A DNA stretch of 64,000 bases from Bacillus sp. UNC41MFS5 (lineage in GTDB: Bacteria > Bacillota > Bacilli > Bacillales_B > DSM-18226), in contig NZ_KK366020.1 in assembly GCF_000686805.1 (NCBI RefSeq), positions 272,969 through 336,968 of the forward strand, read 5' to 3'. Both the position numbers and the translations under genes were made by a program. Of the stretch, positions 8,042 to 62,280 are shown piece after piece (positions within the stretch are counted from its first letter, which is position 1; each line of letters opens with the position of its first letter). Under the pieces are notes generated by a model. The model ran no database searches. It was not told where the DNA came from and worked only from the letters and a program-made list of their open reading frames with translations.

Positions 8042-8167
8042 ATTGTACAAAACCCCTTGAAAATCGTACAAAACATATAAAAAATTGCACAAAAGCTCCT
8101 AAATTTCGTACAAAACCATAATAAAATTGCACTAAATCCAACGGAAATTGCACAAAACAAAAATAAT
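8042..8167. repeat. 21-bp tandem array A (core TTGYACAAAA)
   Basis: Six units begin at 8042, 8063, 8084, 8105, 8126 and 8147, an exact 21-bp spacing. Each has a core of the form WTYGYACAAAA (for example ATTGCACAAAA or ATCGTACAAAA) followed by about 10 variable bases. The array lies directly upstream of the helicase start and forms the false N-terminal extension of that frame. Confidence 0.85.
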
Positions 8168-8261
8168 ATATAAATCAATATCCATATACCTAAATAAAAT
8201 CCATACAAAACAAGAAAATGTCCGTGACAAATGGACAGAATTTCAAAAAGTGTCCACGGGC

Positions 8262-8314
8262 GGTGCCTGACACCAAAAATGACACCAAAAATGACACCAA
8301 AAATGACACCAAGG
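8262..8314 (-). repeat. GGTGTCAGGCACC repeat, copy 5, with 12-bp tandem tail
   Basis: Complementary copy at 8262-8274 whose TGACACC end is amplified into a run of TGACACCAAAAA units at a 12-base spacing up to about 8314. This suggests slippage or terminal extension of the element. Confidence 0.75.
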
Positions 8315-8430
8315 GTCACCAATAATTTTCACAGAAAAATCCATATTCCTTTATTATACCCAAAAATGTGTGGTTAGAGGAGGGCGATGCCTGAATTATC
8401 TTGCAAGCGGGATGTCCAGGATTAAAATAG

Positions 8431-8446
8431 ATCACTTTAAAGTGAT
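8431..8446. other. Perfect 16-bp palindrome
   Basis: ATCACTTTAAAGTGAT is fully self-complementary and lies in the roughly 640-base gap between the helicase start and the alpha-CTD-like gene. It could be a dimeric repressor site, but no regulator gene is adjacent. The rest of the 8168-8598 stretch shows no convincing gene. Confidence 0.4.
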
Positions 8447-8598
8447 ACCGAACCCTATTTAAAGTATAAAAATAGTCAAAATGGCACCAATGAACCAGCT
8501 CCAGCAAATAAAAACGAAAAAAAGCCCGCAGCACATTGGCGAGCTTCATATATGCATCAAGGTATGGCGACTTTACAAATCCAGTACCGGTTGTAATT

Positions 8599-8892
8599 TT
8601 AGCCCCTGAATGATAACCCATTTTCCTTCAAAGCTAATCTAAGTTTAGGTAAAGAAGCAGGTCCCATACCGTGAAATTGCAAAACCTCTTTTTCAGTAAA
8701 CGTTGATAATTGCTGCAAAGTCGTTATCCCATTGTTTTCTAATGCCCGTCTTGCTGGTGCTGAGAGTACGGAAAGAAATCCATCGGCAGGTTTGCGTTCT
8801 TTCTCACATGTTGGACAGGTCGGACAGTCGCTGCTTTTATAAAATTTGTGTCCTTGATCGCAAGTCCTTAAACTTTTTTCGGAAGTGGCCAT
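8599..8892 (-). CDS. RNA polymerase alpha-CTD/HhH-like protein with Cys-rich N-terminus
   Basis: 97 residues. The N-terminal 35 carry CxxGH and CPTCPTCE clusters that could bind zinc. The C-terminal 60 (LSAPARRALENNGITTLQQLSTFTEKEVLQ, then GMGPASLPKLRLALKENGL, read in two parts) match the helix-hairpin-helix fold of the RNA polymerase alpha subunit C-terminal domain. Such small proteins are common in Bacillaceae and probably bind DNA or RNA polymerase; the role is unknown. AAGGAGA lies 10 bases before the ATG. It sits between the SNF2 and SWIM genes on the same strand. Confidence 0.85.
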   Translation of the reverse strand: MATSEKSLRTCDQGHKFYKSSDCPTCPTCEKERKPADGFLSVLSAPARRALENNGITTLQQLSTFTEKEVLQFHGMGPASLPKLRLALKENGLSFRG

Positions 8893-9011
8893 TGTAAAAT
8901 GTCTCCTTTTTCATGATATATCGGTTGGTTTTTCAAATCATGCGAACCCGCTAGGACTAAGCAAAAAGCCAAAAACAAAAGGTGCCAGCAGGAATCGGCA
9001 CCTTCTTACTG

Positions 9012-10643
9012 CTAACCCTCAATCAACTTACTCCGTTTACACTCCTCATGAAACGCCCGCAGCCGCTTCGTCCGCTCCAGTAACGTTTCCAAGAAATACT
9101 CCCAATCATCGACCCGTTTCAACTTCTTATAAAGCGTCCGCAGTTTCTTCAAGTGCCGAACCGCCAAGCGGTAACTGGCCCGGTTCTTCTGATCAATCTC
9201 CTTCTGCGCCGTCTGATGCAGCATCCCCAGCAGCACCTCAGGCTGCTCCTTCTCAATCAGTTTCAACCGGTCCTTCGGCAACTCATAATAATCCAAACCA
9301 ATAAACGCCTGCAGCTCACCCCAGCGGTCATACTGCTTCCGCTCAAACAACACCAATTCATAATCGCCAAAACTGTACGGGAGCATTGCCAGCATGGCTC
9401 GCTCATACAAATCGACCCTATCACTTTCGGCACAATAAGGCGCCACCGCTCGCAGCGCATTTCGCACAAACGTCGCGCAACTATGATAACCGCCGAGCCA
9501 CTCCAAATAACCCTTCACTTTTTGCAAAAATAACTCAACCACCGCACCGACACGCTTCCACGCCTTCAGCCCCGATAAATACTCAATCCAAAACACCAGA
9601 TATGGCGCAATCTCGGCATCACTAAATGGCCGGACCAACTTCAGGGCCGCCTCATCATCCCCAAGCAAGAAATTCAAATGAATCCCAGCAAGCATCAATG
9701 GTGCCGGACTTTCCCAATCCTGGAGCTCCTTCACCCGTGTCTGAATCTTCACCAACTCTTCTTCACGCCACGCCTTCTTTTTGAAAAAATGAATCCACAA
9801 CAGCCGGTACAAGAAAATCCGCTCATACTCTAAGCCCTGTGTACAGGTCAGCAGCTCAAACGTGTCCGCGCGCAACTTATCAACAAATTCATCAAAATCA
9901 AACGGCAGCGACTGCGTGCCAATCTTAATCGATAGCTCCTCGGCATCATCCATCAAATTATGGAACAAATGCAAATAAGCCCGCCTCACCGTATCATCAT
10001 CATGACCCAGCTGATCACTCAGCCGAGCCAACTTCCGAAACGATACGACAATCCCGACCAACTCATATAGCAAGCGCCATTCCTGCTCCACCGGCGCACT
10101 CGCATGAATCCGGCGCTCATAAATTCCAAACAACTCCGGAATCACATACGCACTCGTGTACTTCTTCGTCGCCAGCAACGTGTCAAAACTGACCTCAAAC
10201 GAATGAACCCAGCGCCCATAATCTGGCTTTGACGACCCATTCGCCTTAATCAAATCCTTCGCCGTCTGCAAACCCCAGCTCGAAATTGACTTCGACTCCT
10301 GCATCGGCTCGCGCCACTCGGCTGCCCAATCAGTCACACTACCGGCCCGAGCATACGCACCAAAAAACACCGCCATCTGATGCCGGCAAAAGCCCTCCGC
10401 TGGACACGAACACTCACTCTGCGACAAAAACTCAAAATTCAACTTCACATAACACGGCGTCACATCCTGAACCGTCGCCGTAATCTGCTTATCCCATATC
10501 TGTAACTGCTTCACCAGCCCTTGCCGGTACAGCATCAAACCTTTCTGAACCAGCCGAGCATCCTCCGTCACCGTTGGGTGCAGCAATTCCCGTACCTGAT
10601 CCCCAAAAAGCTCAATCTTCTCACTTGCAGGTGTCGACTCCAA
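9012..10643 (-). CDS. SWIM zinc-finger protein (YwqB type)
   Basis: About 543 residues. The N-terminal region carries a SWIM motif, CxCx(5)CxH, in ECSCPAEGFCRHQMAVFF at about residue 80. The remainder is helical and repetitive with many Trp and Leu, consistent with the long C-terminal part of SWIM proteins that accompany SNF2 ATPases. The SWIM fold binds DNA or protein. Several starts are possible: the frame opens at TTG 10664, but AAAGGGGG best fits a TTG at 10643. The pairing with the downstream SNF2 gene suggests a shared nucleoprotein-remodelling role, an inference from neighbourhood. Confidence 0.85.
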   Translation of the reverse strand: MESTPASEKIELFGDQVRELLHPTVTEDARLVQKGLMLYRQGLVKQLQIWDKQITATVQDVTPCYVKLNFEFLSQSECSCPAEGFCRHQMAVFFGAYARAGSVTDWAAEWREPMQESKSISSWGLQTAKDLIKANGSSKPDYGRWVHSFEVSFDTLLATKKYTSAYVIPELFGIYERRIHASAPVEQEWRLLYELVGIVVSFRKLARLSDQLGHDDDTVRRAYLHLFHNLMDDAEELSIKIGTQSLPFDFDEFVDKLRADTFELLTCTQGLEYERIFLYRLLWIHFFKKKAWREEELVKIQTRVKELQDWESPAPLMLAGIHLNFLLGDDEAALKLVRPFSDAEIAPYLVFWIEYLSGLKAWKRVGAVVELFLQKVKGYLEWLGGYHSCATFVRNALRAVAPYCAESDRVDLYERAMLAMLPYSFGDYELVLFERKQYDRWGELQAFIGLDYYELPKDRLKLIEKEQPEVLLGMLHQTAQKEIDQKNRASYRLAVRHLKKLRTLYKKLKRVDDWEYFLETLLERTKRLRAFHEECKRSKLIEG

Positions 10644-10717
10644 AGCCACAACCCCCTTTACCAAATCCAGTCAATTTTAAATAAAAAACCATATTCCACT
10701 ATTATACCCAAAAAATC

Positions 10718-10760
10718 GGTGTCAGGCACCATGTGAAGAATTCACATGGTGCCTGACACC
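10718..10760. repeat. Perfect inverted repeat built from two GGTGTCAGGCACC copies
   Basis: Copy 6 (10718-10730) and its complement (10748-10760) are joined by ATGTGAA/TTCACAT, giving 20-bp perfect arms around a GAA loop. This is the complete hairpin form of the element scattered over the first 11 kb, as expected for a REP-like or miniature non-autonomous element. Confidence 0.8.
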
Positions 10761-10834
10761 AAAAGAACTCAAAAAATAGAGATGGATAAATTTAGAAATA
10801 AAATGCTATAATTTGGATGAAAAGGAGGATGCAT

Positions 10835-12430
10835 ATGAAAAGTCATTTAAAAGTTTGGCTCGTTGCTATGATTCTATTTAGCTTGCTCATGGGTACAGCA
10901 CAATCACCTACATATGCTGCAAGCAGTAAGAAGGTTCTGGGCACTGAATTTATCAATGGTCTCGTCTTATTTAAGCAAAATGGTAAATATGGAATGTTGA
11001 ATAAAAAAGGGAAGATAGCGATTAAACCGCTATATGACCAGATCAATCAAACCAAGCGGACCAATTTGTTGCGCGTGAAAAAGGGGACGAAATACGGGTT
11101 TATTAATCAAAAGGGAAAAGTGATTGTCAAACCGCAGTATGAGTATGCGGAAAGTGGCGCAACCAATCCAATCATAGTTAAAAAGAATAGTAAATATGGA
11201 TTGATCTCAACTAGCGGTAAGACCATTGTGAAACCCAAATATGAAAGCATTGGCGATTTTGACAATGGGGTTGCCTATTACAAAAGCAATGGTAAATATG
11301 GAATCATCGACACCAAAGGAAAGGTTGTCTTATCGCCAACATACGATGAGATTACAGATAACACCAATGGCGTATTTACCTTCTCCCAAGAGAATAAGTT
11401 AGGCTTAATCAATAAGCAGGGAAAAATCATCGTAACACCAGCTTATTCATCCATAAATCCTTTTACAAATGGGTTATTTAAAGTTAAAAGTAATGGGAAA
11501 TCTGGGATCATTAACACAAGTGGTCAAATCATCGTTACACCTAAATATGATGGAATATCTGAAATTTTTAATGGGTTTGCTCAAACCAGATTAAATGGAA
11601 AATGGGGCTTCATTAGCAGAAAGGGGAAAATGATTGCTGAACCGGTTTATGATTCGGTTAGTGTGTTTAGAAGGGGTCTGGCACCGGTAATAACAGATGG
11701 GAAGTTGGGCTATCTCGATACAAATGGAAAAATGATCATTCCACAACAGTATGAGGAAGCCTACGATGGTGATGGAAGTTCGCTCTATGAATTTTGGCAG
11801 AATGCAGCCGTGGTCGTGAAAAACGGGAAATATGGCGTCATTAATAAAACGGGTCAAGTCATTCTCGATTTCAACTATGACTCGATTAGTTTGTTTAATA
11901 AAAAAGGCTTAGCGATTATTAGGCAAGAGAATAAGTATGGTTTTATTAATGATAAGGGCAAGGTTATTGTCAAGCCAACCTATGACTCTATGAGACTCGC
12001 AACTTATCGTGATGGTGAGTTTACGGGTGATTTTATTATTTTTAAAGAAAATAACAAAGAGGGCGCGCTGAATAGCACAGGAAAAGTCATCGTGAAGCCG
12101 AAGTATGATCGCTTAGATCCATTGGAACACAAAGGTTTGATTCGAGTGAAGCAAGCATTTAAATATGGCATCCTGACTTCTTCAGGTAAAGTCCTAGTCA
12201 AGCCAAAATACAGCGAAATGGAGCCTTTTTACAAAAGCGGTTATTACTTAGTTCTAGTTTCCTATAAAGGCAAATATGGATTTATCAATGATAAGGGGAA
12301 AGTCGTTATCACTCCTCAGTATCAGGAAGTAGGGAATTTCAAAGAGGGTCTGGTTTACGTGAAGAAAAACGGAAAAGCGGGCTTTGTTGATAAGAAAGGA
12401 AAAGTAGTCATTAAATTGATCTACTATTAA
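10835..12430 (+). CDS. Secreted WG-repeat protein
   Basis: About 531 residues. A Sec signal peptide (MKSHLKVWLVAMILFSLLMG, cleavage probably near TYAAS) is followed by some fifteen WG-type repeats of about 32 residues with the pattern KYGfInkkGKvivkPxYD, running to the C-terminus. WG repeats form extracellular or envelope beta-structures of unknown function in Gram-positive bacteria. The ATG at 10835 has AAGGAGG 7 bases upstream, better than the ATG at 10817. A TATAAT lies at 10807-10812. Although the repeats alone form the mature protein, sequence divergence between them shows long-standing expansion rather than recent amplification. Confidence 0.9.
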   Translation: MKSHLKVWLVAMILFSLLMGTAQSPTYAASSKKVLGTEFINGLVLFKQNGKYGMLNKKGKIAIKPLYDQINQTKRTNLLRVKKGTKYGFINQKGKVIVKPQYEYAESGATNPIIVKKNSKYGLISTSGKTIVKPKYESIGDFDNGVAYYKSNGKYGIIDTKGKVVLSPTYDEITDNTNGVFTFSQENKLGLINKQGKIIVTPAYSSINPFTNGLFKVKSNGKSGIINTSGQIIVTPKYDGISEIFNGFAQTRLNGKWGFISRKGKMIAEPVYDSVSVFRRGLAPVITDGKLGYLDTNGKMIIPQQYEEAYDGDGSSLYEFWQNAAVVVKNGKYGVINKTGQVILDFNYDSISLFNKKGLAIIRQENKYGFINDKGKVIVKPTYDSMRLATYRDGEFTGDFIIFKENNKEGALNSTGKVIVKPKYDRLDPLEHKGLIRVKQAFKYGILTSSGKVLVKPKYSEMEPFYKSGYYLVLVSYKGKYGFINDKGKVVITPQYQEVGNFKEGLVYVKKNGKAGFVDKKGKVVIKLIYY

Positions 12431-12471
12431 TAACATTCACCGGCTTAGGCATCTCCGAGTTAAACAAGAAC

Positions 12472-12511
12472 AAAAAAGAGCCAGCCCCTCAATCAATCAC
12501 GGGGTTGGCTC
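12472..12511 (-). terminator. Terminator of the 45-aa minus-strand gene
   Basis: On the minus strand GAGCCAACCCC pairs with GGGGCTGGCTC and is followed by six T residues. The stop codon of the small upstream gene lies in the loop. Confidence 0.75.
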
Positions 12512-12634
12512 GATCTTTGCAGCTTCAGTTTTTGATAGACTAGAAAAATATTCAAATAAGTGCGTTAAATAGCTGTTAAGCTCAAAACCTTCTTCATTCA
12601 CATACTCAGACAATAACAATGTATTCTCCTTCAT
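12497..12634 (-). CDS. Small protein, 45 aa, unknown
   Basis: Short minus-strand frame starting MKENTLLLSEYVNEEGFELN, with a central aromatic stretch (LTHLFEYFSSL) and a charged C-terminus. GAGGGGG lies 8 bases before the ATG and an intrinsic terminator overlaps the 3' end. No family is recognised. The region also holds nothing else between the WG-repeat gene and the next membrane gene. Confidence 0.5.
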   Translation of the reverse strand: MKENTLLLSEYVNEEGFELNSYLTHLFEYFSSLSKTEAAKIEPTP

Positions 12635-12784
12635 CCTCGTTACCCCCTCGATTTTGAAACTATCATCATTATGGCCAAACTATCATTCTCTTATACCTGT
12701 AAAAATACAGAAAATGACAATGGTGAAATTTGGGTTGGCATTGCTATCAATAGTATTCTACAATGTAATGAAGGAGTGGTTACA

Positions 12785-13195: not shown

Positions 13196-13220
13196 TTCAG
13201 TTTTTCAGTAGGATTCTCTA

Positions 13221-13249
13221 AAAACCCAGGCTGGATCACCTGGATTTTT
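13221..13249 (+). terminator. Terminator after the membrane protein
   Basis: AAACCCAGG/CCTGG stem with an 8-base loop and TTTTT on the plus strand. Confidence 0.7.
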
Positions 13250-13260
13250 AGAGTCCACCA

Positions 13261-13449: not shown

Positions 13450-13493
13450 TTATAACCATTTCCTTTTTCAATGTAGTTTAAAGCTAAATCTCT

Positions 13494-14085: not shown

Positions 14086-15630
14086 TTACCTGATCACAAT
14101 AAACGGCCGCATCATTTCATAATCCTCATGCTCCAGCATATGACAATGCCAGACATATAATCCTGTAAAAGGACCAAACTTCATCATAATCCGCGTGACC
14201 TGTTTCGGGTCGGCGCGAACAGTATCCTTCCAGCCTCGTTCATGGGGTTCGGGCGGAATCTCTGGACCCGTATAATGGATTGTTTTATTCTTGTTAAACC
14301 AATCTACATCAACCCCCCGCCGATCTAGGACCTGAAACTCAATTAAATGAATGTGAATCGGGTGGGAATCCGGAGATAAGTTAATCAGATACCAGATTTC
14401 GGTGGAGCCCAACTTTGGATTTTCGGAAATCGGGTCATCCCACTGTTTATTATCCAATAACATCAATGGACGACCGTACTTATCCATACTGTCATTTAAA
14501 GTTAAGTATCGTGACTTGGAAGCGGACTGCTCATTCATCAACCGATAAGGCACCATATAAGCCGGAATCATACTCGTATCAACACTGGACAAAGGGAGTG
14601 TCACTTGAAACTGCATCACGCTCCCCGTTTGCTCATCCACTGGATTTCCACTTGGAAAGGGGGCAGGCGCATCGTTAGTCAGGATAATCTTCCTACCCTC
14701 CAGGTTGGTAAAATCAATAATCACCTCAGCCCGTTCGGCCGGTGATAACAGGAGTTCTTTGACCCCCATCGGCTGCTGCATCAAACCTCGTTCGGTTGCA
14801 ATCAGATACATCTGCTGGCCCGAATCCAGCTTCATCCGAAAGAAGCGGCTGTTAGAGGCGTTGAGGAGCCGAAAGCGATATTTACGCGGTTCTACTTTTA
14901 AAAAGGGAGATACTTTGCCATTCACCAAAAGGGTATCGCCAAAAAATTCAGGAACGACCGATGTGTCTAATCCCGGGACAGGTTTTTCCGGCTGCTTCGG
15001 GTAAAAAAGAGAACCATCTTGATGGAAAGTTTTGTCCTGAATAACAAGCGGAACATCATATGGCATGCTTGGTAAATTCAAAGACCGCTCCCGTTGGCTC
15101 CTGACCAGGTAGAATCCCGCCAATCCAGCATACACATTAAGCCTCGTAATCCCGAGGGCATGGTCGTGATACCAAAGAGTGCTGGCATGATCACAATTAG
15201 TATAGTGATAGACTTGCTTTTTAAAATAAGGCCCCACTTTTTCGAATCCCCTCGTAAACCAAGCTTCCGGGTAGCCATCGCTTTCCCATTCCACACAAGC
15301 TCCGTGAACGTGCACAACTGTCCGGACATCCGGCACATCCTTATGGGCGCCGTGAACCGTATAGTCGATCGGCAAGAGATGCTTATCTGGAAGATCGTTG
15401 ATCCATTTGATATACACATTTTCGCCGCTTTCCACCTCAATCGTCGGCCCCGGATAACTGCCTTCGTAGCCCCAAACGGTTGTATCATTCAACTCACGAT
15501 GGAGTGATTGCTTAAATTCCGTCATCTTCACTTCATAATAAGTATAAGATTGGTCTTTCCATCGGGGTCTTAAAATAGGAGGAATCGGGAGTTCATCTAT
15601 AAATTTAGAGAGATTTTTCAAATGATACAC
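14086..15630 (-). CDS. cotA: Spore coat laccase CotA (multicopper oxidase)
   Basis: 514 residues, the length of B. subtilis CotA (513). It oxidises phenolic substrates and bilirubin with reduction of O2 to water, in the outer spore coat, and gives brown pigment and UV protection. All four copper motifs are visible: HVHGA, WYHDH, HPIHIHLIEF and the C-terminal WHCHMLEHEDYEMM with its axial Met. The N-terminus (LSKFIDELPIPPILRP) aligns with the CotA start. The weak TTG/ATG context upstream leaves the exact start slightly uncertain. A CATAAAGTA motif in the upstream DNA resembles a sigma-K -10 element. Confidence 0.96.
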   Translation of the reverse strand: MYHLKNLSKFIDELPIPPILRPRWKDQSYTYYEVKMTEFKQSLHRELNDTTVWGYEGSYPGPTIEVESGENVYIKWINDLPDKHLLPIDYTVHGAHKDVPDVRTVVHVHGACVEWESDGYPEAWFTRGFEKVGPYFKKQVYHYTNCDHASTLWYHDHALGITRLNVYAGLAGFYLVRSQRERSLNLPSMPYDVPLVIQDKTFHQDGSLFYPKQPEKPVPGLDTSVVPEFFGDTLLVNGKVSPFLKVEPRKYRFRLLNASNSRFFRMKLDSGQQMYLIATERGLMQQPMGVKELLLSPAERAEVIIDFTNLEGRKIILTNDAPAPFPSGNPVDEQTGSVMQFQVTLPLSSVDTSMIPAYMVPYRLMNEQSASKSRYLTLNDSMDKYGRPLMLLDNKQWDDPISENPKLGSTEIWYLINLSPDSHPIHIHLIEFQVLDRRGVDVDWFNKNKTIHYTGPEIPPEPHERGWKDTVRADPKQVTRIMMKFGPFTGLYVWHCHMLEHEDYEMMRPFIVIR

Positions 15631-17599: not shown

Positions 17600-17794
17600 C
17601 AATTTACCACCCCGAATTATCCAATTAATAGTTATAAAACCCTTTGACAAAGCGATTTCAAATGCAATTACTATATTAAATGCAGCAATTGGACAACTTG
17701 TAACGGCTTACGTCCTATAGTTGCTCGACAATAAAGATTGCCGAATGGATTTTCAATAAGTTATTTCTGAAAAAACAGTAAAGTTGCGACAGAA

Positions 17795-18145
17795 AAATGC
17801 GGATATTATCAAGGCGTCAATTATTTTGATATTCGGCATGTATTAGATGTCAAAGGATTCCTAAAAGACATTCGGACTAATTGGAATACATATGTGTCAC
17901 AAGTTAACCAATGGATTCAACATAGCGCAGTAAAAAAACTTGTCGTGACGGGCATTTTTACCGTCGTACTCAGCTTTTTTGCCAGCTCCACCAATACTGC
18001 ATTTATTCAGGAATATACATATCAGGTGAAAAGTGGCGAAAAAATTGAAAATATCGCCTCAGAACATTGAATAACAGCACAAGAAATATTAGAAGCGAAC
18101 GGGATCACGGGGGTCAACAAATGACATTACTTTCCCTTTAATAAA
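17795..18145 (+). pseudogene. LysM/SH3 protein pseudogene
   Basis: A decayed paralogue of the intact gene at 60848-62101. In frame it reads NYFDIRHVLDVKGFLKDIR, through the membrane segment LVVTGIFTVVLSFFASS, to QVKSGEKIENIASEH, then meets a TGA where the intact copy has sense codons. After ILEANGI the sequence jumps to the last codons of the gene (GTCAACAAATGAC, then TTACTTTC), so about 780 bases holding the SH3 and second LysM domains are deleted. A terminator is still present. The intact paralogue lies 43 kb away on the same strand. Confidence 0.88.
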
Positions 18146-18161
18146 TCGTACCAAAAAAAAT

Positions 18162-18185
18162 AGCCTCCAGTGTGAGGCTTTTTTT
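18162..18185 (+). terminator. Terminator retained by the pseudogene
   Basis: AGCCTC/GAGGCT stem followed by seven T residues, immediately after the pseudogene. Confidence 0.8.
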
Positions 18186-18231
18186 ATTGGATAGTTCTAG
18201 CTTTAGAAGAGATGGTGTAACTTAAAAGGGG

Positions 18232-18357
18232 TCTGGCGGAAAAGCAGGTAAAGTTGGCACAATTACATCCCAGATTGGCGGAATCCGCATCAAATTGGGC
18301 GGAATCACTCCACAGTTTGGCGGAATTCATGTCCAAATCGGCGGAATCGCTACTTCA
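18232..18357. repeat. 21-bp tandem array B (core TTGGCGGAATC)
   Basis: Six units whose GGCGG cores (or GGCAC in unit 2) are spaced exactly 21 bases apart: the GG falls at 18235, 18256, 18277, 18298, 18319 and 18340. The rest of each unit varies. It starts about 45 bases after the LysM/SH3 pseudogene terminator. One plus-strand frame is open through it and gives heptads of the LAESASN, WAESLHS, LAEFMSK type, judged an accident of the 21-base period. Confidence 0.85.
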
Positions 18358-18418
18358 TAAAAGCCAAACAAACAGGAAGGCCAACAGTTTTCGCATTAAT
18401 GGTTGTTTTTCGGATAAG

Positions 18419-27922: not shown

Positions 27923-28114
27923 ATCTCTTCACCACCTATTTAGTATTTGAGGATGTTATTTACCATCCACAAGATTATTATATTTTTTACAAGAGGAGGT
28001 GATTGGACATGTTCCCCTTGTTCGAAGAAATCCACAATTGTACCCTATTTTTTCTAAACGGATGAAAACAAAAAGAAGCGAATGTAATCATACATTCGCT
28101 TCTTCTGGAGGTGT

Positions 28115-29176: not shown

Positions 29177-29416
29177 TTTTTTGGAATATATGCTTTTCGC
29201 AGAATAAACATCATGAAAGAAAGAGCCCAAAATAGGCTCTTCCTTTCATGATGTTTATTCATATATCAGTCGTTTTTTTAGAAAATGCGACGTCTTTTTT
29301 TTGGAATATATGCTTTTCGCAGAATAAACATCATGAAAGAAAGAGCCCAAAATAGGCTCTTCCTTTCATGATGTTTATTCATATATCAGTCGTTTTTTTA
29401 GAAAATGCGACGTCTT
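29177..29416. repeat. Exact 120-bp tandem duplication
   Basis: 29177-29296 and 29297-29416 are identical over 120 bases. Each unit holds the long AACATCATGAAAG hairpin and the last five codons of the Sm-like gene. Being exact, the duplication is recent. Confidence 0.92.
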
Positions 29417-29998: not shown

Positions 29999-30193
29999 AT
30001 CTTTTCACCACCTAAATCGTATTTAAGGAGGTTTTTTCCATCCTCACCATTAGTATATTTTTTACAAAAGAAGGTGATTGGACATGTTCCCGTTGTTCGA
30101 AAAAATCCGCAGTTGTACTCTATTTTTTCTTAACTGGTGAAAAACAAGAAGAAGCGAATGTATGAAAACATTCGCTTCTTCCAGAGGTGTATA

Positions 30194-43815: not shown

Positions 43816-43890
43816 TGTGTGTTTTAGGGAATTGTCGGCGTGTATGATGCCTGAAGAGTTAAGAAATTTGATTGAATGGTAACCATAGGA

Positions 43891-44046
43891 AGCGACTAAT
43901 GCCCGTGAAGGCAAAAAAATGGCTTCAACAGTAACTAGTCCAAGCGACTAATGCCCGTGAAGGCCAAAAAAAGACTTCAGCGGTAACTAGTCCAAGCGAC
44001 TAATGCCCGTGAAGGTGAAAAAATGGCTTCAATGGTAACTAGTCCA
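43891..44046 (+). repeat. Three tandem 52-bp repeats
   Basis: Units start at 43891, 43943 and 43995 with AGCGACTAATGCCCGTGAAG. Each contains self-complementary parts: GACTA with TAGTC at the ends and TGAAGGC with GGCTTCA inside, so each unit folds into one hairpin. Differences are confined mainly to the loop. The right end breaks down into a degenerate partial unit. Confidence 0.85.
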
Positions 44047-44169
44047 AAAGCCACTGATACCCAATAAGGGAAAAGAGAAGAACAATTTTCGGGGATGAAC
44101 CTTTGGTATAAACTATGAAATTATTGTCTATCCTTAAACTATAAAACTAGTTTGTAGGGGTGGTTATCG

Positions 44170-49410: not shown

Positions 49411-49601
49411 ATAATTCCTCCTAAAATATTAGTTTTTCTTTCCATTAGTGAATGGACTGGGAAGTGTTTCCATCGAAAATGATAACACTATGAAAATATG
49501 AAAACAACAATTAATTATATAAATATTCTGATAATTTTTGATAAAAACAGTCAATTGGGCATGATTTAACCTCCAAAACCTTCCATATACAGATAAATAT
49601 C

Positions 49602-49671
49602 AACAAAACTTAACGAAACCAAACAAAACTCAACAAGATTTAACAAAACTTAATGAAACTTAACAAAAGTC
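49602..49671. repeat. 10-bp tandem array D (AACAAAACTT)
   Basis: Seven consecutive units starting at 49602, 49612, 49622, 49632, 49642, 49652 and 49662: AACAAAACTT, AACGAAACCA, AACAAAACTC, AACAAGATTT, AACAAAACTT, AATGAAACTT, AACAAAAGTC. The exact 10-bp (one helical turn) period of A-tracts would give a bent DNA region. It lies between the divergent aldehyde dehydrogenase and 148-aa genes. Confidence 0.85.
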
Positions 49672-50589: not shown

Positions 50590-51312
50590 TTAGTTTTCGT
50601 TCCCTGGTTTATAAGTAGTAATACTCTCATCATGGTCTGTTTTAATATCAAACTCAACGTCACCTTTTTGATTATAGGTAGCTAATGTGATTTTATGTAG
50701 ATCTTCTTCCTTGAGTTGATGATTCATCATTTGGGAATACAGCCAATCCAAATTTTTATGAACGAACTTTAAATTTTGCTGGACGATATCCCCGTCCATA
50801 ATTAAGGGGATGGAAATAAAGGTAGGACTAGGTTGAAGATTTAGGTCGCTGGGTTGTAATGGTCTTTTATCAGATTTGGGGATGATACTTACCTGCCCAG
50901 ACTCCTCCATAACCGCCATTTCCACATCTAATATATTTGTATATCCCTTTGTTCGCAGGATACCTTGAAGTTCTTCAACCGTTAAGCGAACTCTTGCTAA
51001 CCCTTTTTCGTCGATGTCCCCTCCCCGAATTAAACAAGTAGGGCTGTGAGAGATCCAATACTTCAACTTGTTGACCAATGCCAGTCTCGATAAAATGATA
51101 TATAAAAGAGCAATTGCAAAAGAATACCAAGCAGCTGACCAGTTGTTTTTTGAAACAATGGGTTCAGTTATGGCCGTTCCCATAATCTGTATAAACATCA
51201 AGTCGAAGGCCGTCATTTGCGCGACTGATCTCTTTCCAGCAAACTTAACCAATAAAAACCCTAAAGAAAACACCATAAAAGGTGTCCATAAATAATCATT
51301 TAAGAACGTCAC
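50590..51312 (-). CDS. DUF421 membrane protein (YetF type)
   Basis: 240 residues: three N-terminal helices with FAGKRSVAQMTAFDLMFIQI, then a cytosolic domain with the DUF421 hallmark RLTVEELQGILRTKGYTNIL and DVEMAVMEESGQVSIIPKS. Members such as YetF occur in spore-formers, some in germination or spore membranes; function is unknown. The GTG at 51312 follows AAGGAGG at a long 13-base distance. Confidence 0.88.
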   Translation of the reverse strand: MTFLNDYLWTPFMVFSLGFLLVKFAGKRSVAQMTAFDLMFIQIMGTAITEPIVSKNNWSAAWYSFAIALLYIILSRLALVNKLKYWISHSPTCLIRGGDIDEKGLARVRLTVEELQGILRTKGYTNILDVEMAVMEESGQVSIIPKSDKRPLQPSDLNLQPSPTFISIPLIMDGDIVQQNLKFVHKNLDWLYSQMMNHQLKEEDLHKITLATYNQKGDVEFDIKTDHDESITTYKPGNEN

Positions 51313-51482
51313 TTTTCAATATTAGCCTCCTTAAAACCCTCCTTACCATTATTCCTAGTCTAAGCAGGAATAAACTTAGAAATTATATAAGGGAGGGTTC
51401 CCACCGTTTACTGCTAGGGGAAAAATTAAAGCCAAAGGGCTCTTTTTAGTATCGAAATTGTTCAATTATCGTGGTATGAAGG

Positions 51483-51586
51483 ATTCGCTGATAGAATGCT
51501 AGATTCGCTGATAAAAGTGCGTTATTCGCTGATAAAATGGCCATATTCGCTGATAAACTTCAATTATTCGCTGATAGACTGCTGAG
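51483..51586. repeat. 21-bp tandem array E (core ATTCGCTGATA)
   Basis: Five units starting at 51483, 51503, 51524, 51545 and 51566 (spacings 20, 21, 21, 21), each beginning ATTCGCTGATA followed by about 10 variable bases. The core is the same as in array F 10.7 kb away. The surrounding 51313-51748 DNA has no gene; two TTTATTCGCAAATCC-like words follow the array. Confidence 0.88.
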
Positions 51587-51789: not shown

Positions 51790-53172
51790 TTAAGCTTCGA
51801 TTGCTCTAGGCTGTTGGTAGACTTCTTTTTCTAATTCGCCCGTGATTTTACCAGTTAACACGCCGGCGGTCATGCTTCCGCTGACATTCAAGGCGGTACG
51901 GCCCATATCGATTAAAGGCTCAACTGAGATGAGCAGTCCAACAATGGCGATTGGCAGGTTTAATACGGATAGAACGATTAATGCGGCAAATGTGGCTCCG
52001 CCGCCAACACCTGCAACCCCAAATGAACTAATTGCCACTACTAGAATAAGCGTAATGATAAACGATGGGCTTAACGGATTGATGCCTGCGGACGGCGCAA
52101 CCATGACGGCTAGCATCGCTGGGTAAATACCAGCACATCCGTTTTGGCCGATGGAAAGTCCGAACGATGCGGCAAAGTTAGCAATCCCTTCCGATACACC
52201 AAAGTCTTTTGTTTGTGTTTTGATATTTAAAGGTAATGTTCCCGCACTCGTACGAGAAGTAAAGGCAAACGTTAGGGCAGGCAATGCTTTTTGCACATAG
52301 TTTACAGGACTTAATTTTGCAAGTAATAGGAGCAGCAAATGTACGATAAACATCGCAATTAATGCCACATAAGATGCAATCACAAACTTCCCTAATTTCG
52401 CGATCGCTGCATAATCACTCATCGCCATCACTTTCGTAATTAACGCAAGTACCCCATATGGAGTAAGACGAAGAATAAGTGTGACGACCCGCATGATAAT
52501 CGCATAAAACGTATCAATGATTTTAGCGAAAAATTCTCCGTGTTCTGGATCTTTTTTCTTTACTCCAAGGTAAGCCATACCCACAATCGCGGCAAAAATA
52601 ACGACGGCGATGGTAGAGGTTGGGCGGGCCCCCGTTAGATCCGCAAATGGATTACTTGGAAACAATTCGATGATTTGCTGCGGAATCGTCATGTCTTGAA
52701 CGCCAACCACTTTTTGTTCCAATTCAGCATTTCGAGTTGCCTCAGCATCACCTTGATTTAATTGAATTCCGTCCAGGCCAAATCCTAACGCTGAACCAAT
52801 TCCAATCGCTGCAGAAATAGCGGTCGTTCCAAGAAGAATGGCAATTACAAGGAAACTAATTTTCCCGATATTTTTAGTCAACTTTAATTTCGTAAACGCT
52901 CCAACGATCGAAATAAACACAAGCGGCATGACAACCATTTGCAATAGTTTTACATACCCCGTTCCAACGATTGCAAACCAATCGATGGACTTTACCGTAA
53001 TGTTGGACGTTGTCCCATAAATCAAATGAATGATAAATCCAAAAACAATACCCAACCCCAATGCAGTAAAAACACGCTTAGAAAAAGACACATGCTTTTT
53101 CTGCATCGCGAACAATCCAAGGACAAGCAGTAGGAAAACGGCAATATTAATAATAATCAAAATAGTATCCAT
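51790..53172 (-). CDS. tcyP: L-cystine transporter TcyP (dicarboxylate/amino acid:cation symporter)
   Basis: 460 residues, close to B. subtilis TcyP (463). Multi-helix DAACS fold with the family regions FVISIVGAFTKLKLTKNIG-like (here FISIVGAFTKLKLTKNIG), AFTSRTSAGTLPLN, GCAGIYPAMLAVM and VGGGATFAALIVLSVLNLPI. It imports cystine in symport with sodium or protons. GGGGG precedes the ATG. On its promoter side, TTGACC, 17 bases, TATAGT read on the minus strand near 53210-53245. CymR control is known for B. subtilis tcyP, but no site is claimed here. Confidence 0.92.
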   Translation of the reverse strand: MDTILIIINIAVFLLLVLGLFAMQKKHVSFSKRVFTALGLGIVFGFIIHLIYGTTSNITVKSIDWFAIVGTGYVKLLQMVVMPLVFISIVGAFTKLKLTKNIGKISFLVIAILLGTTAISAAIGIGSALGFGLDGIQLNQGDAEATRNAELEQKVVGVQDMTIPQQIIELFPSNPFADLTGARPTSTIAVVIFAAIVGMAYLGVKKKDPEHGEFFAKIIDTFYAIIMRVVTLILRLTPYGVLALITKVMAMSDYAAIAKLGKFVIASYVALIAMFIVHLLLLLLAKLSPVNYVQKALPALTFAFTSRTSAGTLPLNIKTQTKDFGVSEGIANFAASFGLSIGQNGCAGIYPAMLAVMVAPSAGINPLSPSFIITLILVVAISSFGVAGVGGGATFAALIVLSVLNLPIAIVGLLISVEPLIDMGRTALNVSGSMTAGVLTGKITGELEKEVYQQPRAIEA

Positions 53173-57375: not shown

Positions 57376-57436
57376 GTTATTGCCTCCTAATATTTTGTTA
57401 TACTAACAAAAATTGATTGTTAACTTTTACGGATTT

Positions 57437-57467
57437 ATTATAGTGGTTAGAGTAAACTCTAAGTCAA
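57437..57467 (-). promoter_or_regulatory. MerR-type promoter with 19-bp spacer and internal dyad
   Basis: Minus-strand -35 TTGACT and -10 TATAAT are separated by exactly 19 bases, longer than the usual 17. The dyad TTAGAGTTTACTCTAA sits inside the spacer (57447-57462 on the plus strand). This is the defining architecture of promoters activated by MerR-family proteins, which untwist the long spacer. Confidence 0.85.
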
Positions 57468-57514
57468 ACCTATTTTTTACACTTGATTAGCATTGGTTAA
57501 AAATGGAGGGTTTT

Positions 57515-57895
57515 ATGTATACAATTGGCGAAGTGGCACAACTAGTAGGAGTTAGCACACATACATTACGTTACTATGAAAAAGAGAATATCATTCTTCC
57601 AGATCGTAATGAACATGGAGAAAGAAAATATACTGAATCGCATCTTCAATGGCTAAAATTTGTTTTAAAATTAAAAGAGACGCAAATGCCGATCACAAAA
57701 ATCAAAGAGTATGCCTTCTTGTATACTCAAGGAGAACATACAGCAATTAATCGATTAAAACTATTAGAAGATCATAAAAGTTCCATAGAAAACCAGTTAA
57801 AGACACTGAAAGAAACGAATAAAATGTTAGAACATAAAATTACTTCATATAAAGAAATGATTTTGAAAAGTAATGAAGTAGATACAAATGCATAA
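57515..57895 (+). CDS. MerR-family transcriptional regulator
   Basis: 126 residues: winged HTH (YTIGEVAQLVGVSTHTLRYY, then ENIILPDRNEHGERKYT), a coiled-coil dimerisation helix and no conserved C-terminal Cys, so an organic ligand rather than a metal is likely. GGAGG lies 5 bases before the ATG at 57515. Divergent from the SDR gene, whose promoter has the elongated 19-bp spacer with a dyad. Confidence 0.92.
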   Translation: MYTIGEVAQLVGVSTHTLRYYEKENIILPDRNEHGERKYTESHLQWLKFVLKLKETQMPITKIKEYAFLYTQGEHTAINRLKLLEDHKSSIENQLKTLKETNKMLEHKITSYKEMILKSNEVDTNA

Positions 57896-58027
57896 TATTA
57901 TAATATTCTTTAGTATTATTATATTTAGGGTAAATAACGTAAACACATAAAAAAAGGAAGGCACAAATTAGATTTGTATAATATGTGCGTTCCTTAATTA
58001 ATTGTTATTGAACTAACTCACCCGTTT

Positions 58028-58216
58028 CTATGTAGAAAAAAACTTTAATCCAGTTTGCTTGACGACTTCAGGCCAGCTTAACTTTAACCTGCGACAAATG
58101 GTTGTACTATAAACTTGTCCTTTCCTCTTCAACAAATCATAATCCCTTTGGTTAGTTGAACCAATCCGTAGCAATTCTGTTTTCAACTCTCCAAGTATCT
58201 CTTGTCTTGTCTTCAA
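58028..58216 (-). CDS. Small HTH-like protein, 62 aa
   Basis: Reads LKTRQEILGELKTELLRIGS, then NQRDYDLLKRKGQVYSTTIC and RRLKLSWPEVVKQTGLKFF. The C-terminal half resembles the small HTH repeat found with homing endonucleases and in stand-alone Bacillus miniproteins. A TTG at 58216 with GAGGTG 8 bases upstream is preferred to the GTG at 58225. Function unknown. Confidence 0.65.
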   Translation of the reverse strand: MKTRQEILGELKTELLRIGSTNQRDYDLLKRKGQVYSTTICRRLKLSWPEVVKQTGLKFFST

Positions 58217-58449
58217 TCTACTCACCTCTTATTGATTTACAAAAAATCGAGCCAGAAAGATTGATAATGCATGTCCCCGCTTTAAAATGTTTTTTAGGAG
58301 CGGATTAAATTTGTTATACAAAATATTGAGATGTCTAACCATTTTCATCTATATAATCAATTACCGGCTTATTCCTTTTAAGATCAATGAATAAAGTACT
58401 TTAAGGGGTAAATCAATTTTCTGAATACTAAGCCCTGCTTTCTGTAACG

Positions 58450-58635
58450 CTACTTGACTGGCAGGTACCGACCCCATTCCGATGATAAACACTCTTTTGC
58501 GTTTTTTAGTTCCCTTAACCTTTCTTTGATAAACTCAATTTGTTCCTCGGTAATAATAAAATCCTTAAGACGATCCTCAAAATGAGCAATTCGTCTTTCT
58601 AATTCCTCTATAGTAAGGCTATTAGTATTCTTCAT
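58450..58635 (-). CDS. Small coiled-coil protein, 61 aa
   Basis: Begins MKNTNSLTIEELERRIAHFE and continues with charged heptads (EEQIEFIKERLRELKNAKEC). A cytosolic helical miniprotein with AAGGAG before the ATG at 58635; the frame extends further upstream but without a binding site. Unknown function. Confidence 0.65.
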   Translation of the reverse strand: MKNTNSLTIEELERRIAHFEDRLKDFIITEEQIEFIKERLRELKNAKECLSSEWGRYLPVK

Positions 58636-58731
58636 AAATCTTCCAACTCCTTTTATTTGGTGGAACCCCTGGAATTTCTGATGCCAATGCAACGTATATT
58701 GCTTTTAAAGCTTCCAAGGGAAATTAACAAA

Positions 58732-58753
58732 GAAGGGCCAACAAGGCCCCCTC
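58732..58753 (-). terminator. Terminator-like hairpin after gapN
   Basis: GGGCC/GGCCC stem around AACAA, followed on the minus strand by CTTCTTTG. Modest T-run. Confidence 0.5.
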
Positions 58754-58789
58754 TATTAGGAATTAAAGTTACAATTTTACAACTTTAGA

Positions 58790-60244
58790 TTAATAAGTAA
58801 GATTTAATACAGTTACTTTTTCACGCGTCATCGATTCAATGCTCTTGCGGATACCTTGCGCACCCATTCCAGATCCTTTTACACCGATAAATGGGAAATG
58901 ATCCGGGCCGCGTTCGGTACGTCCGTTTATTTGAACTGAGCCTGTTTCAATTTTATTCGCAATCGCAAATGCTTTATTAATATCTTTGGTAAAGACACTT
59001 GCCTGTAAGCCAAATTCAGATTCATTCGCAATATTGATCGCTTCTTCATCAGAGGATACACGGATTATTGGAAGCACAGGTCCGAACGGTTCCTCCCAAG
59101 CTACGGTCATGTCTTCTGTCACATGATCAAGAAGAGTAGGGTAAATTAAATTGTGTTCACGCTTATTTCCTGTTACAAGGGTTGCGCCTTTTTCAATGGC
59201 ATCCTCAATTAATCCTTGAACAAAGTCAGCAGACTGATTATCAATTAACGGGACAACCGTGCTGCCGTCTTCCGGGGAACCTACCACCAGTTTTTCAATT
59301 TCTTCTTTTAAAATCGAAGCAAGCTCGTCCGCAACACTGTCATGAACTAATACGCGTTTAATCGCTGTGCAACGCTGACCGGAATAAGAAAATGCACCGC
59401 TGATAATATGTTTCGCCGCTTCATTTAAATCAGCATCTTCCCGCACAATACCAGGATCTTTCCCACCAAGCTCAAGTACAAGTGGAATCATGCCCGCCTT
59501 TTTCGCTAAGCGAGTTCCGGTATTTGTTCCGCCTGTAAAGGAAATCATATTAATTCCTTTATGCTCCACCAAGTAATCACCAATAACTGAACCACGACCT
59601 GTCACGATATTGACAAGACCTTTTGGAAAGTTTGCTTTGTGAAGAGCCTCAATCATTTTTATCCCGCTGATCGCGCCTTGTGTAGCAGGTTTAAAGATGA
59701 CTGCATTCCCGGAAATAAGTGCAGGTGCCAGTTTAGCAGCAGCTAAATTGACCGGATAGTTAAATGGAGGAATGGCTAGGACTATTCCAAGTGGAACACG
59801 ATCAACAATCGCAATCTTAGACTTAGAACCGCCCGGGAAGCTATCTCCCTTTAAACTCTCTCCTTTCATATGCATCGCTTCTTCTACCGTGTATCGAATG
59901 AAACCGGCAGTACGTACGACTTCACTCTTTGCATCATTAAAACTTTTCCCAACTTCTTTCATAATGATTTCAGCAATTTCCTCTTGCATGTTTTCTAATT
60001 CATCTGCCCATTGATACAAAAATTTTGCCCGTTCTTGAAGTGAAGTATCTGCCCAATTTTTTTGGGCTATATTAGCATAATAAATTGCCTCATCTACCTC
60101 TTCAGTTGTAATCGCCTGTACTTCTCCAAGCACTTCATAAAGATAAGGTGACGTGATTTTAATTGTTTCACCAGACTTACTTTCTCTCCATTCCCCATTT
60201 ATATAGAAAGGATAAGCTGTTAAGGATAATACGTTTGTTGGCAT
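58790..60244 (-). CDS. gapN: NADP-dependent non-phosphorylating glyceraldehyde-3-phosphate dehydrogenase
   Basis: 484 residues of the aldehyde dehydrogenase superfamily with the GapN-specific text GRTERGPDHFPFIGVKGSG near the C-terminus and catalytic Cys in FSYSGQRCTAIKRVLVH, and Glu in LELGGKDPGI. GapN converts glyceraldehyde-3-phosphate irreversibly to 3-phosphoglycerate with NADP, a bypass of GAPDH and PGK that makes NADPH. AAGGAGG lies 7 bases before the ATG. Single-gene unit. Confidence 0.94.
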   Translation of the reverse strand: MPTNVLSLTAYPFYINGEWRESKSGETIKITSPYLYEVLGEVQAITTEEVDEAIYYANIAQKNWADTSLQERAKFLYQWADELENMQEEIAEIIMKEVGKSFNDAKSEVVRTAGFIRYTVEEAMHMKGESLKGDSFPGGSKSKIAIVDRVPLGIVLAIPPFNYPVNLAAAKLAPALISGNAVIFKPATQGAISGIKMIEALHKANFPKGLVNIVTGRGSVIGDYLVEHKGINMISFTGGTNTGTRLAKKAGMIPLVLELGGKDPGIVREDADLNEAAKHIISGAFSYSGQRCTAIKRVLVHDSVADELASILKEEIEKLVVGSPEDGSTVVPLIDNQSADFVQGLIEDAIEKGATLVTGNKREHNLIYPTLLDHVTEDMTVAWEEPFGPVLPIIRVSSDEEAINIANESEFGLQASVFTKDINKAFAIANKIETGSVQINGRTERGPDHFPFIGVKGSGMGAQGIRKSIESMTREKVTVLNLTY

Positions 60245-60249
60245 AATAA

Positions 60250-60845
60250 ATCCTCCTTGAATTTTTTAATATATTTTGAATATATTGAAAAAAATAGATT
60301 GGGACATAATTTGTCCTACATAGACATAAAATGTCCCGTTTTGTGTAAAAAAAATGATTCTTGCAAGATTAGTCATTCCTTCATTGGGACCACTTTAGAT
60401 TATATTTTTTTAACTTTTCAATTTTCCCATTTCCATAAAAGATTGGAATCTTACCAAAAATATTATGGATTATATTTAGAAAAATAAAAATAGTTTCTAC
60501 AAAAGATATCAAAACATTACAAAAATAGACAAAATTCAATCATTATAGATCCTAACTATCCATAGATCAAAAATTCTAAGAAAACTAATAATATGCCCTT
60601 CAAATTCATATTCAAATTGATAGCCACTTTATATTACATTTTCGATGTTTTATATAAAGAATGGATTTAAGAAAGAATTGTCGGTTTTTTTATTTTTTAG
60701 TCCAAAATTTTCATATATCACTAAATTATGGACAGAAAATGATGGATATTGTCGAATCTTACAGAGGGGGGTAAAAGGTCATAGGTCACATTCAGTGTCA
60801 TTCATGATCATCCCGTTAAGACATCGACAGAGGGAATAGGAGAAG
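60250..60845. other. AT-rich gap between gapN and the LysM/SH3 gene
   Basis: No supported gene. Between about 60740 and 60840 the DNA becomes richer in G (AGAGGGGGGTAAAAGGTCATAG) and could be an RNA leader, but no known riboswitch motif was recognised. Confidence 0.4.
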
Positions 60846-60847
60846 TA

Positions 60848-62101
60848 GTGAATATGACGAACAAATTATTTGTGAATGGTGAATTAGCTATTATCAGAAA
60901 AGAAACTCATGGAAAAAGCAAGCAAACAAAAAGTGCACCAGAGTTCACTTCGAGGATGGAAAAACGCCAATATGATCAAAGATTCAATTATTTTGATATT
61001 CGTAATGTATTAGATATCAAAGGAATCCTAAAAGATATTCGTGCCAATTGGAATTCATATGTGTCACAGGTTAACCAAATGATTCAAAAAAGCCCTGTAA
61101 AAAATCTAGTCGTGACTGGGATATTTACTATTGTCCTTAGCTTTTTTGCAAGCACAGCCAATGCGGCCTTTATTGAGGAATATACCTATCAGGTAAAAAG
61201 TGGTGAAAAAATCGAAGCGATTGCGGCGGCACATGGGGTAACCCCACAAGAAATTTTAGAGGCCAATGGGCTGACTTCCATCAACGGGAAAAAAATCCTT
61301 TTACCAAAAGTACATAATCGAACGGTGAATGCCACAACGCTAAATGTTCGGACACATCCGACGACAGAAAGCAGTATCATAGGAACCTATAAAAAAGGGG
61401 AAGTTGTGAAGGTTTCATTCGTAGAAAACGGTTGGGCACGCATTCTGATCAAAGGAAGAGTTTGTTTTGTGAATGCTAATTATCTTACTACACCAGGGGA
61501 AACGACTAAGCCAGCTATAACTCAAGCCAAAACGATGTATGTAAATGCGACAACATTAAGAGTGAGAGAAGCTACCTCTACGAGTGGTACGGTAATAGGT
61601 ATGTTAAAGTTAAACGATCGTGTGTCGGTGAGATCCTCTAATAAAGGGTGGGCTCAAATTGATTTCAACGGTAAAACGGCGTTTGTCAGTGAAACCTACT
61701 TAACTATGAACAAACCAGCAACAACAAAACCAAGTTCATCTATGTATGTGATTAAGCCTGGTGATACGTTTGTAAAAATCAGTAAAGCCTTAAATATCTC
61801 AGTCACATCCATTCAAGAACTAAATCCAACCGTTGACCCAGTAAAGTTGAAAATTGGGCAAAAAATTAACATCCCTGCCAATATAGCAACTGTCACTACT
61901 AATCAAATAAAAGTATCAGCGCAACTTCAAGCCGTAGACCCTAATGGAACGTTTCGTTTTATTACGGCTAATGGAAACACGTATGCTGCCAAAGCATCAG
62001 GAGAGTTGATAAAGGAATTAGTAGAACATATTGGGCAAAAAGTATCCCTAACCCTTGAAGGGAAACGGGGTCAACAAATGACTTTACTTTCTGTTCAATA
62101 A
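60848..62101 (+). CDS. LysM/SH3 domain envelope protein
   Basis: About 417 residues. A cytosolic N-terminal region of about 75 residues (FNYFDIRNVLDIKGILKDIR) leads to one membrane segment (VTGIFTIVLSFFASTANA). Then a LysM domain (YTYQVKSGEKIEAIAAAHGV), two SH3-type domains (ATTLNVRTHPTTESSIIGTY and a similar one), a second LysM (YVIKPGDTFVKISKALNISV) and a beta-rich C-terminus. It anchors in the membrane and binds peptidoglycan, with no catalytic domain. A truncated copy is at 17.8-18.1 kb. GTG 60848 or ATG 60854 may start it. Confidence 0.88.
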   Translation: MNMTNKLFVNGELAIIRKETHGKSKQTKSAPEFTSRMEKRQYDQRFNYFDIRNVLDIKGILKDIRANWNSYVSQVNQMIQKSPVKNLVVTGIFTIVLSFFASTANAAFIEEYTYQVKSGEKIEAIAAAHGVTPQEILEANGLTSINGKKILLPKVHNRTVNATTLNVRTHPTTESSIIGTYKKGEVVKVSFVENGWARILIKGRVCFVNANYLTTPGETTKPAITQAKTMYVNATTLRVREATSTSGTVIGMLKLNDRVSVRSSNKGWAQIDFNGKTAFVSETYLTMNKPATTKPSSSMYVIKPGDTFVKISKALNISVTSIQELNPTVDPVKLKIGQKINIPANIATVTTNQIKVSAQLQAVDPNGTFRFITANGNTYAAKASGELIKELVEHIGQKVSLTLEGKRGQQMTLLSVQ

Positions 62102-62154
62102 ATAAAGTTAGCCTCAGGTATTTGGCTTTCTCTAATGGATTGTTGCTTTCTTAG

Positions 62155-62280
62155 ATTCGCTGATTAAACTCAAAAATTCGCTGATTGAGCTAAGAAATTC
62201 GCTGATTTGGCTAAGAAATTCGCTGATAGAATCCGAAAATTCGCTCGTTAAGCACCATAATTCGCCCATAGACTGGTTAG
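62155..62280. repeat. 21-bp tandem array F (core ATTCGCTGATA)
   Basis: Six units start at 62155, 62176, 62197, 62218, 62239 and 62260, every 21 bases exactly. Each begins ATTCGCTGAT (degenerate in the last two: ATTCGCTCGT, ATTCGCCCAT) and continues with about 10 variable bases. Read on the minus strand they give heptads such as ISEFLSQ. The array starts 54 bases after the LysM/SH3 stop, in the same place that array B occupies after the pseudogene. Confidence 0.9.

Follow-up and report, generated by a model that had tools for sequence, protein, structure and literature searches.

Intergenic arrays of 21-bp units with constrained cores in Neobacillus-like genomes, candidate protein-binding platforms near operon ends

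What are the short, evenly spaced repeats that lie between the genes of a 64-kilobase (kb) stretch of Bacillus sp. UNC41MFS5 (contig NZ_KK366020.1, positions 272,969 to 336,968; hereafter, the window), and does anything read them? The window is bacterial and Neobacillus-like, and a first-pass annotation had claimed that it holds four intergenic arrays of five to six units at 20 to 21 base pairs (bp), representing a genome-level class of noncoding repeats. Both parts of this claim held up. A finder to which no period was supplied (8-mers, one mismatch, at least four copies, periods of 15 to 30 bp) returned five arrays of about 20 to 21 bp each (8043–8157, 18275–18349, 49601–49670, 51482–51578, and 62153–62266), four of which are the intergenic arrays in question, here called A, B, D, and E, and the class recurs in related genomes. 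The fifth, at 49601–49670, was excluded from the class because it is actually a 10-bp AACAAAACTT repeat. The four arrays are as follows (positions refer to the window).

8042–8160, + strand: array A, six units of 21 bp, core ATTG[T/C]ACAAAA and variants; cores (TTG[T/C]ACAAAA and variants) start at 8043, 8064, 8085, 8106, 8127, and 8148
18231–18360, + strand: array B, six units of 21 bp, core TTGGCGGAAT, two exact and four imperfect; cores start at 18233, 18254, 18275, 18296, 18317, and 18338
51483–51586, + strand: array D, five ATTCGCTGAT cores, all exact, at spacings of 20, 21, 21, and 21 bp; cores start at 51483, 51503, 51524, 51545, and 51566
62155–62279, + strand: array E, six units of 21 bp, ATTCGCTGAT four times and then the diverged ATTCGCTCGT and ATTCGCCCAT; cores start at 62155, 62176, 62197, 62218, 62239, and 62260

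Across genomes, each unit consists of a constrained core of about 10 bp and a freer linker of about 11 bp, and several core families have this geometry in common. Information content ranges from 0.9 to 2.0 bits per position over the ten core positions and from 0 to 0.8 bits in the linker, where it rises to 1.1 bits at two positions adjoining the CGCTGAT core. The distance between neighboring units, measured over 83 arrays from two core families, is 21 bp in 340 of 368 cases, 20 bp in 23, and 19, 22, or 23 bp in five (spacings of 19 to 23 bp were allowed in this count, and three arrays of genome G142 entered it twice). When the gap between two ATTCGCTGAT cores was left free at 16 to 26 bp, the pairs listed were spaced at 20 to 21 bp, with one at 22 bp. 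Unit number is also restricted: six units occur in 18 of 22 arrays of the TTGGCG family (to which array B belongs) in G142, in 7 of 18 in Neobacillus sp. SuZ13 (G001), and in 11 of 17 at other loci, five is the most frequent number among CGCTGAT arrays (11 of 23), and SuZ13 holds one array of 13 units. Further cores found at the same 21-bp spacing in SuZ13, G155, and G003 are ACTTATGACA, AATGAGCGAAT, TATCTGCCACTTT, TTACTGTCGGAT, TTTTGGCTATTTTT, TTTACTSTCCAC, and TTTATTTGCGAAT, as well as, in one instance, DnaA boxes.

The first-pass annotation had called for a count of all arrays with periods of 20 to 22 bp, and this count, made on the window and relatives, bears out the existence of the class. 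We searched periods of 13 to 40 bp in 1.624 megabases (Mb) comprising the window and stretches of SuZ13, G155, G007, and G003; in these sequences (chosen at the level of genomes, and for G007 and G003 also of contigs, for the presence of arrays), 32 arrays have at least four copies, and the median spacing is 20 to 22 bp in 23 of them, the 10-bp repeat of the window included. After Markov shuffling of this DNA, three passes together yielded a single array (period 23), and leaving out G007 and G003 retained 14 of 21 arrays at 20 to 22 bp. Core pairs give the same picture: with a free gap, 29 of the 193 genomes in the family to which SuZ13 belongs have ATTCGCTGAT pairs, and 26 of the 193 have TTGGCGRAAT pairs, with the reversed control pattern occurring in 0 genomes in both cases. 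An initial free-gap scan for ATTCGCTGAT pairs matched at least 119 stretches, and the matches listed come in part from Chloroflexi and further genomes, where the spacings differ. The Chloroflexi pairs (from Thermoflexus and Anaerolineae; e.g., L008, L016, L066, and L079) are often 15 to 16, 23 to 24, 31 to 32, or 39 to 40 bp apart and look like a different repeat. A search of the open-access literature in PMC returned nothing on 21-bp arrays.

Most arrays of the TTGGCG family follow a gene, in many cases beyond a terminator, and the cores read in sense. Among 51 clusters of this family, for which neighboring genes were called by a simple longest-open-reading-frame rule, a terminator was present within 130 bp upstream in 31 cases in sense and 5 in antisense, and within 150 bp downstream in 0 cases in sense and 6 in antisense; in 41 of 50 cases, the upstream gene runs in the same direction as the core. 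Counting one cluster per orthogroup (26 in all), the corresponding figures are 12 and 3 for upstream terminators and 0 and 3 for downstream ones. In a separate count of arrays between codirectional genes, 13 of 15 (GG arrays, as defined below) and 10 of 11 are in sense. The 20 scanned genes (of 22 flanking 11 clusters in G142) are mutually unrelated and include those for thymidine kinase and peptide release factor, a DegV protein and a helicase, UvrA, an FtsW-type protein, a class-III aminotransferase and a SpoVID-like protein, and an encapsulin and its cargo.

The cores of the TTGGCG family come in two types, GG and GA, which differ in whether the seventh base is G or A. Among 22 genomes, GA-type pairs occur in 4 and GG-type pairs in 13, with two genomes on both lists. 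TTGGCG arrays occupy shared loci across species in 12 multimember orthogroups, and both core types are present in 10 of the 12. In 15 alignments at shared loci, made between genomes picked for their different core types, linkers differ at 343 of 879 sites (39%), and nine core positions differ at 52 of 736 (7%, 21 of them at the second base), whereas the seventh core base differs in 67 of 82 units, 66 times as G/A. This shift is confined to the arrays, since outside them GA- and GG-type genomes have the two 8-mers in similar proportions (49:43 in SuZ13 and 16:12 in G142), which is not so inside (12:68 and 116:0). Trees built from array flanks place GG genomes between GA genomes with 100% support (OG1 and OG4), indicating that the core changed at least twice, in either direction, provided that arrays and flanks have had a common history.

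Taken together, the constraint on the core, the freedom of the linkers, the fixed phase, and the shared one-base difference point to something acting in trans that reads the core. The fixed phase of 21 bp is best explained by a protein on DNA, and such a protein is, in our estimation, the probable core reader; the location beyond terminators suggests that readthrough is restrained. The explanation that we favor, and to which we give about even credence, is that the arrays are platforms for a putative sequence-specific protein that would be bound head to tail on one face of the DNA and is predicted to curb stray transcription at operon ends. Among the roles that the first-pass annotation had offered, binding sites on one face of the helix is the one that best fits the spacing, the constrained cores, and the unconstrained linkers, although the protein itself is putative; nucleoid-protein sites and RNA decoys are further candidates. 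Binding might well be cooperative, with one protomer per 21 bp (two helical turns), and several core families in a genome would require several related factors or one family with diversified specificity. More tentatively, the outcome could be a roadblock or insulator against readthrough, fencing adjoining operons off from each other; one review (PMC10310618) describes roadblock termination that delimits transcription in yeast and Escherichia coli. More doubtful is a bolder version, in which arrays of up to six units would be operon insulators occupied head to tail past terminators by rapidly diverging proteins, with each change in preference followed by cores genome-wide, repeatedly across lineages. 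If true, this would give bacteria an equivalent of a rapidly evolving DNA reader with its set of targets. If a factor does read the arrays, they offer a natural experiment on how a regulator and all of its targets change together, apparently more than once, and bear on how bacteria separate adjoining operons when terminators leak.

Several observations count against the favored explanation. No factor was found for the cores. Outside the TTGGCG family, orientation has no firm direction (11 versus 5 for CGCTGAT arrays and 3 versus 4 for TACAAAA arrays), and pairs of the array A core exceed the reversed control only twofold (23 versus 11, in 22 genomes). A local insulator does not predict the one-way, clustered distribution of TTGGCGGAAT pairs in G142, where all 52 point in the same direction and fall within 3.40 to 5.14 Mb of a 5.15-Mb chromosome (about a third of it); pairs of this type are likewise distributed 0 versus 46, 18, and 17 between the two directions in G141, G146, and G153, respectively. 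The 82% difference at the seventh base is not a rate, because the pairs were GG versus GA by choice, their members overlap, and the best-scoring copy was used, and in 2 of the 15 alignments, the base differs in just one of six units. Each flank tree rests on about 1.7 kb, such that transfer of a single locus could mislead. Core type has exceptions: array B of the window is of the GG type, although the nearest relatives of the window are of the GA type; at one locus, the array of the GA-type genome G010 is of the GG type; and SuZ13 has some mixed arrays. Finally, at the locus of array A, G142 has six units with TGAACAAAA in five and TAAACAAAA in the sixth, whereas its other arrays retain TTGTACAAAA, a difference limited to one array and left unaccounted for by a single factor acting across the genome.

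The main rival is an element that operates at the RNA level in transcripts that extend past the terminator, with cores pairing with a small RNA or binding an RNA-binding protein (as a sponge, decoy, or decay signal); a single substitution in the small RNA would then be followed by all arrays. We consider it unlikely. A single changed guide would account for the one-base core difference, and the prevailing sense orientation of the TTGGCG family (the 41 of 50 upstream genes noted above) is as an RNA element would have it. Folding beyond chance is absent in 15 of 16 array strands, and arrays D and E fold less than shuffles on both strands (z of 0.87 to 2.65), as an open target would; the exception, the − strand of array A (z of −5.45), folds strongly, as palindromic TTGYACAA units would. 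However, RNA has no need of a strict 21-bp spacing, CGCTGAT arrays are found in both orientations, arrays past a terminator would be little transcribed, and a search of Rfam returned no family at threshold within the window.

Less probable still is that the arrays are selfish or neutral minisatellites, spread by duplication and template switching, settled where harmless, and kept alike in their cores by recombination. Some observations speak for this reading: whole arrays recur three to six times at mostly 165 to 206 bp with a common stretch between them (L364:9753–10852, L366:4163–4663, L375:9805–10515, and L376:8803–9457), G143 has an array separating a stop codon from a terminator that are only a few bases apart in the window and SuZ13, and one array in SuZ13 has 13 units. 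Recombination would homogenize linkers as well as cores, yet linkers can be aligned between species while one core base differs, and random tandem duplication would not favor a single period.

That the core difference is mutational and unselected (arising, for example, from loss of a methylated C in TTCCGCC) is very improbable: read on the opposite strand, the change from GGCGGAAT to GGCGAAAT is from C to T, but the 8-mer ratio outside arrays is alike in both genome types, no general mutation bias was seen there, and other differences among arrays are transversions (TGAT/TCAT at array E and changes to A at array A). Least credible is that the arrays encode heptad-repeat peptides, a reading that the first-pass annotation had set aside and that gains no clear support over all six frames (any of which is open in 64 of 67 TTGGCG-family arrays of at least five units, a small excess over the 58.7 expected with shuffled linkers), from spacings of 20 and 22 bp that break the frame in some arrays, or from linker change rates that lack a clear three-base rhythm, although one antisense frame is open in excess (40 of 67 versus 23.9 with shuffled linkers). 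For annotators, open frames inside such intergenic arrays need not be genes.

Among the closest known systems are the LytTR regulators, whose sites (PMC6193735) are 9-bp direct repeats mostly separated by 12 bp, i.e., a period of 21 bp. The arrays fall within the description of LytTR sites as 9- to 10-bp direct repeats with an 11- to 13-bp spacer and share with them the two-turn geometry, the direct repeats, and the low conservation of repeat sequence between systems; LytTR sites differ in being pairs of repeats that precede a −35 box by about 10 bp, whereas the arrays have mostly four to six units at operon ends. LytTR genes number 4 to 5 in GA genomes (two in G075) and 1 to 2 in GG genomes (six in G134), and 1 to 5 are present in 12 genomes without TTGGCG pairs. 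Against several core families, there is one such gene in G007 (with at least two core families), one in G133, and two in G142. Best scores for LytTR are 107.9 to 111.2 in GA genomes and 114.2 to 115.8 in GG genomes, with 102.4 in G133 (a comparison of scores, not of sequences). As core readers, LytTR proteins are thus a lead: the geometry fits, and GA genomes differ from most GG genomes in having more LytTR genes and other best scores, but gene numbers do not follow the arrays.

Clusters of DnaA boxes in Bacillus also consist of 9-bp sites bound by DnaA multimers. The DnaA box is generally constant between species; the cores in the window vary from species to species and do not match it. Boxes matching TTATNCACA, which we take to be the DnaA consensus, are present in L259:1266–1483 of SuZ13 (at 5.20 Mb) and absent from the window arrays. 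By eye, the L259 stretch contains nine TTATCCACA-like DnaA boxes in two groups at a spacing of about 21 bp.

Repetitive extragenic palindromes and bacterial interspersed mosaic elements (REP/BIME), with their RAYT partners, are interspersed extragenic palindromes at operon ends that are linked to a Y1 transposase. The arrays are likewise interspersed, extragenic, and at operon ends, but they are mostly without a fold, and array-rich SuZ13 has no match to Y1_Tnp; 20 of the 21 genomes searched, array-poor ones included, have one to four matches. We had considered a Y1 transposase with what is presumably a DnaA-like domain as the mover of cores that resemble DnaA boxes, and this candidate was dropped because of the lack of a match in SuZ13. 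Spo0A was also rejected as a reader: the GA core contains what we take to be the 0A-box motif, and the best Spo0A_C score is 152.5 to 153.6 bits in all 12 genomes of both types (only scores being compared). Uptake sequences form dialects in which a single, dispersed motif, present in very many copies genome-wide, differs slightly between relatives; the arrays are similarly genome-wide with a small difference between species, but they are phased, and single 10-mers are few.

BldC (PMC5859096) forms head-to-tail multimers on tandem asymmetric direct repeats of varying number, with enhanced DNase cleavage on one face; the arrays are comparable to the sites described there in being tandem and asymmetric and differ in having 10-bp cores every 21 bp. 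The TAACTGA heptamer arrays (PMC4679880) likewise comprise many small intergenic sets of direct repeats per genome, but those repeats are 7-mers located mostly just 5′ of start codons. A link to mobile elements, as with plasmid iterons or the end arrays of transposons, was also considered. Searches of plasmid records (72,556) with one TTGGCG cluster and with array D, and of phage records (50,697) with one TTGGCG cluster, returned no match; 10 viral contigs with core pairs were left unexamined.

The surroundings of the four arrays can be compared locus by locus. SuZ13 is syntenic with much of the window from 31 kb onward, and the proteins of two genes in the syntenic stretch are 93% and 88% identical. 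Array A adjoins the start of a − strand gene for an SNF2-type helicase (open reading frame 4989–8153), whose GTG lies inside the array; the window, G143, and SuZ13 carry the same array at the same place. Upstream of array B is a terminator-like hairpin (at about 18155–18190, identified by eye). Just 5′ of array B, window positions 17792–18049 have 87% identity to part of a LysM/SH3 gene of SuZ13 and are probably a fragment of a LysM/SH3 paralogue.

On one side of array D, a dicarboxylate symporter gene (51790–53172, − strand) ends with its terminator; on the other side, a DUF421 gene (50590–51312, − strand) starts. At this locus, SuZ13 has the same core as the window, and the G143 array mentioned above, situated between the stop codon and the terminator, has five units of the ATTCGCTCAT/CCAT type. 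Array E begins 54 bp 3′ of the stop codon of a LysM/SH3 gene (60848–62101, + strand), behind which SuZ13 has cores of the ATTCGCTCAT/CCAT type (TCAT or CCAT) versus ATTCGCTGAT in the window, and G007 has a TTGGCGGAAT array; the compared stretches of G003 (with one lone core) and G143 contain no array. Beyond array E lies one further feature, near the site of a five-unit array in SuZ13 with core ACTTATGACA.

62376–62407, + strand: a pair of units from another array, ATGTCATAAAT and ATGTTATAAAT, at a distance of 21 bp

A second class of tandem repeats was also seen, mostly intergenic, in which 3 to 20 units follow each other every 52 bp, or roughly five turns of the helix. The sequence is specific to each locus, and some units are capable of forming hairpins. 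A literature search on 52-bp arrays found nothing. They are located at the following positions.

Window 43888–44047: 52-bp array
L168:10596–10865: 52-bp array
L218:13525–14156: 52-bp array
L225:10824–11066: 52-bp array
L229:1110–1910 and 15143–15535: 52-bp arrays
L231:11871–12905: 52-bp array
L245:18921–19284: 52-bp array
L259:18066–18783: 52-bp array
L264:6829–7086: 52-bp array
L275:19585–19997: 52-bp array

Three other kinds of repeats occur in the window. The AACAAAACTT repeat at 49601–49670 and a TACAAAACAT repeat at 60498–60524 have periods of about 10 bp and resemble phased A-tracts. Positions 29177–29416 hold two identical 120-bp tandem copies, each apparently with an inverted repeat, and at 28074–28103 and 30150–30179, two sites about 2 kb from each other, ATTCGCTTCT occurs in inverted pairs 20 bp apart.

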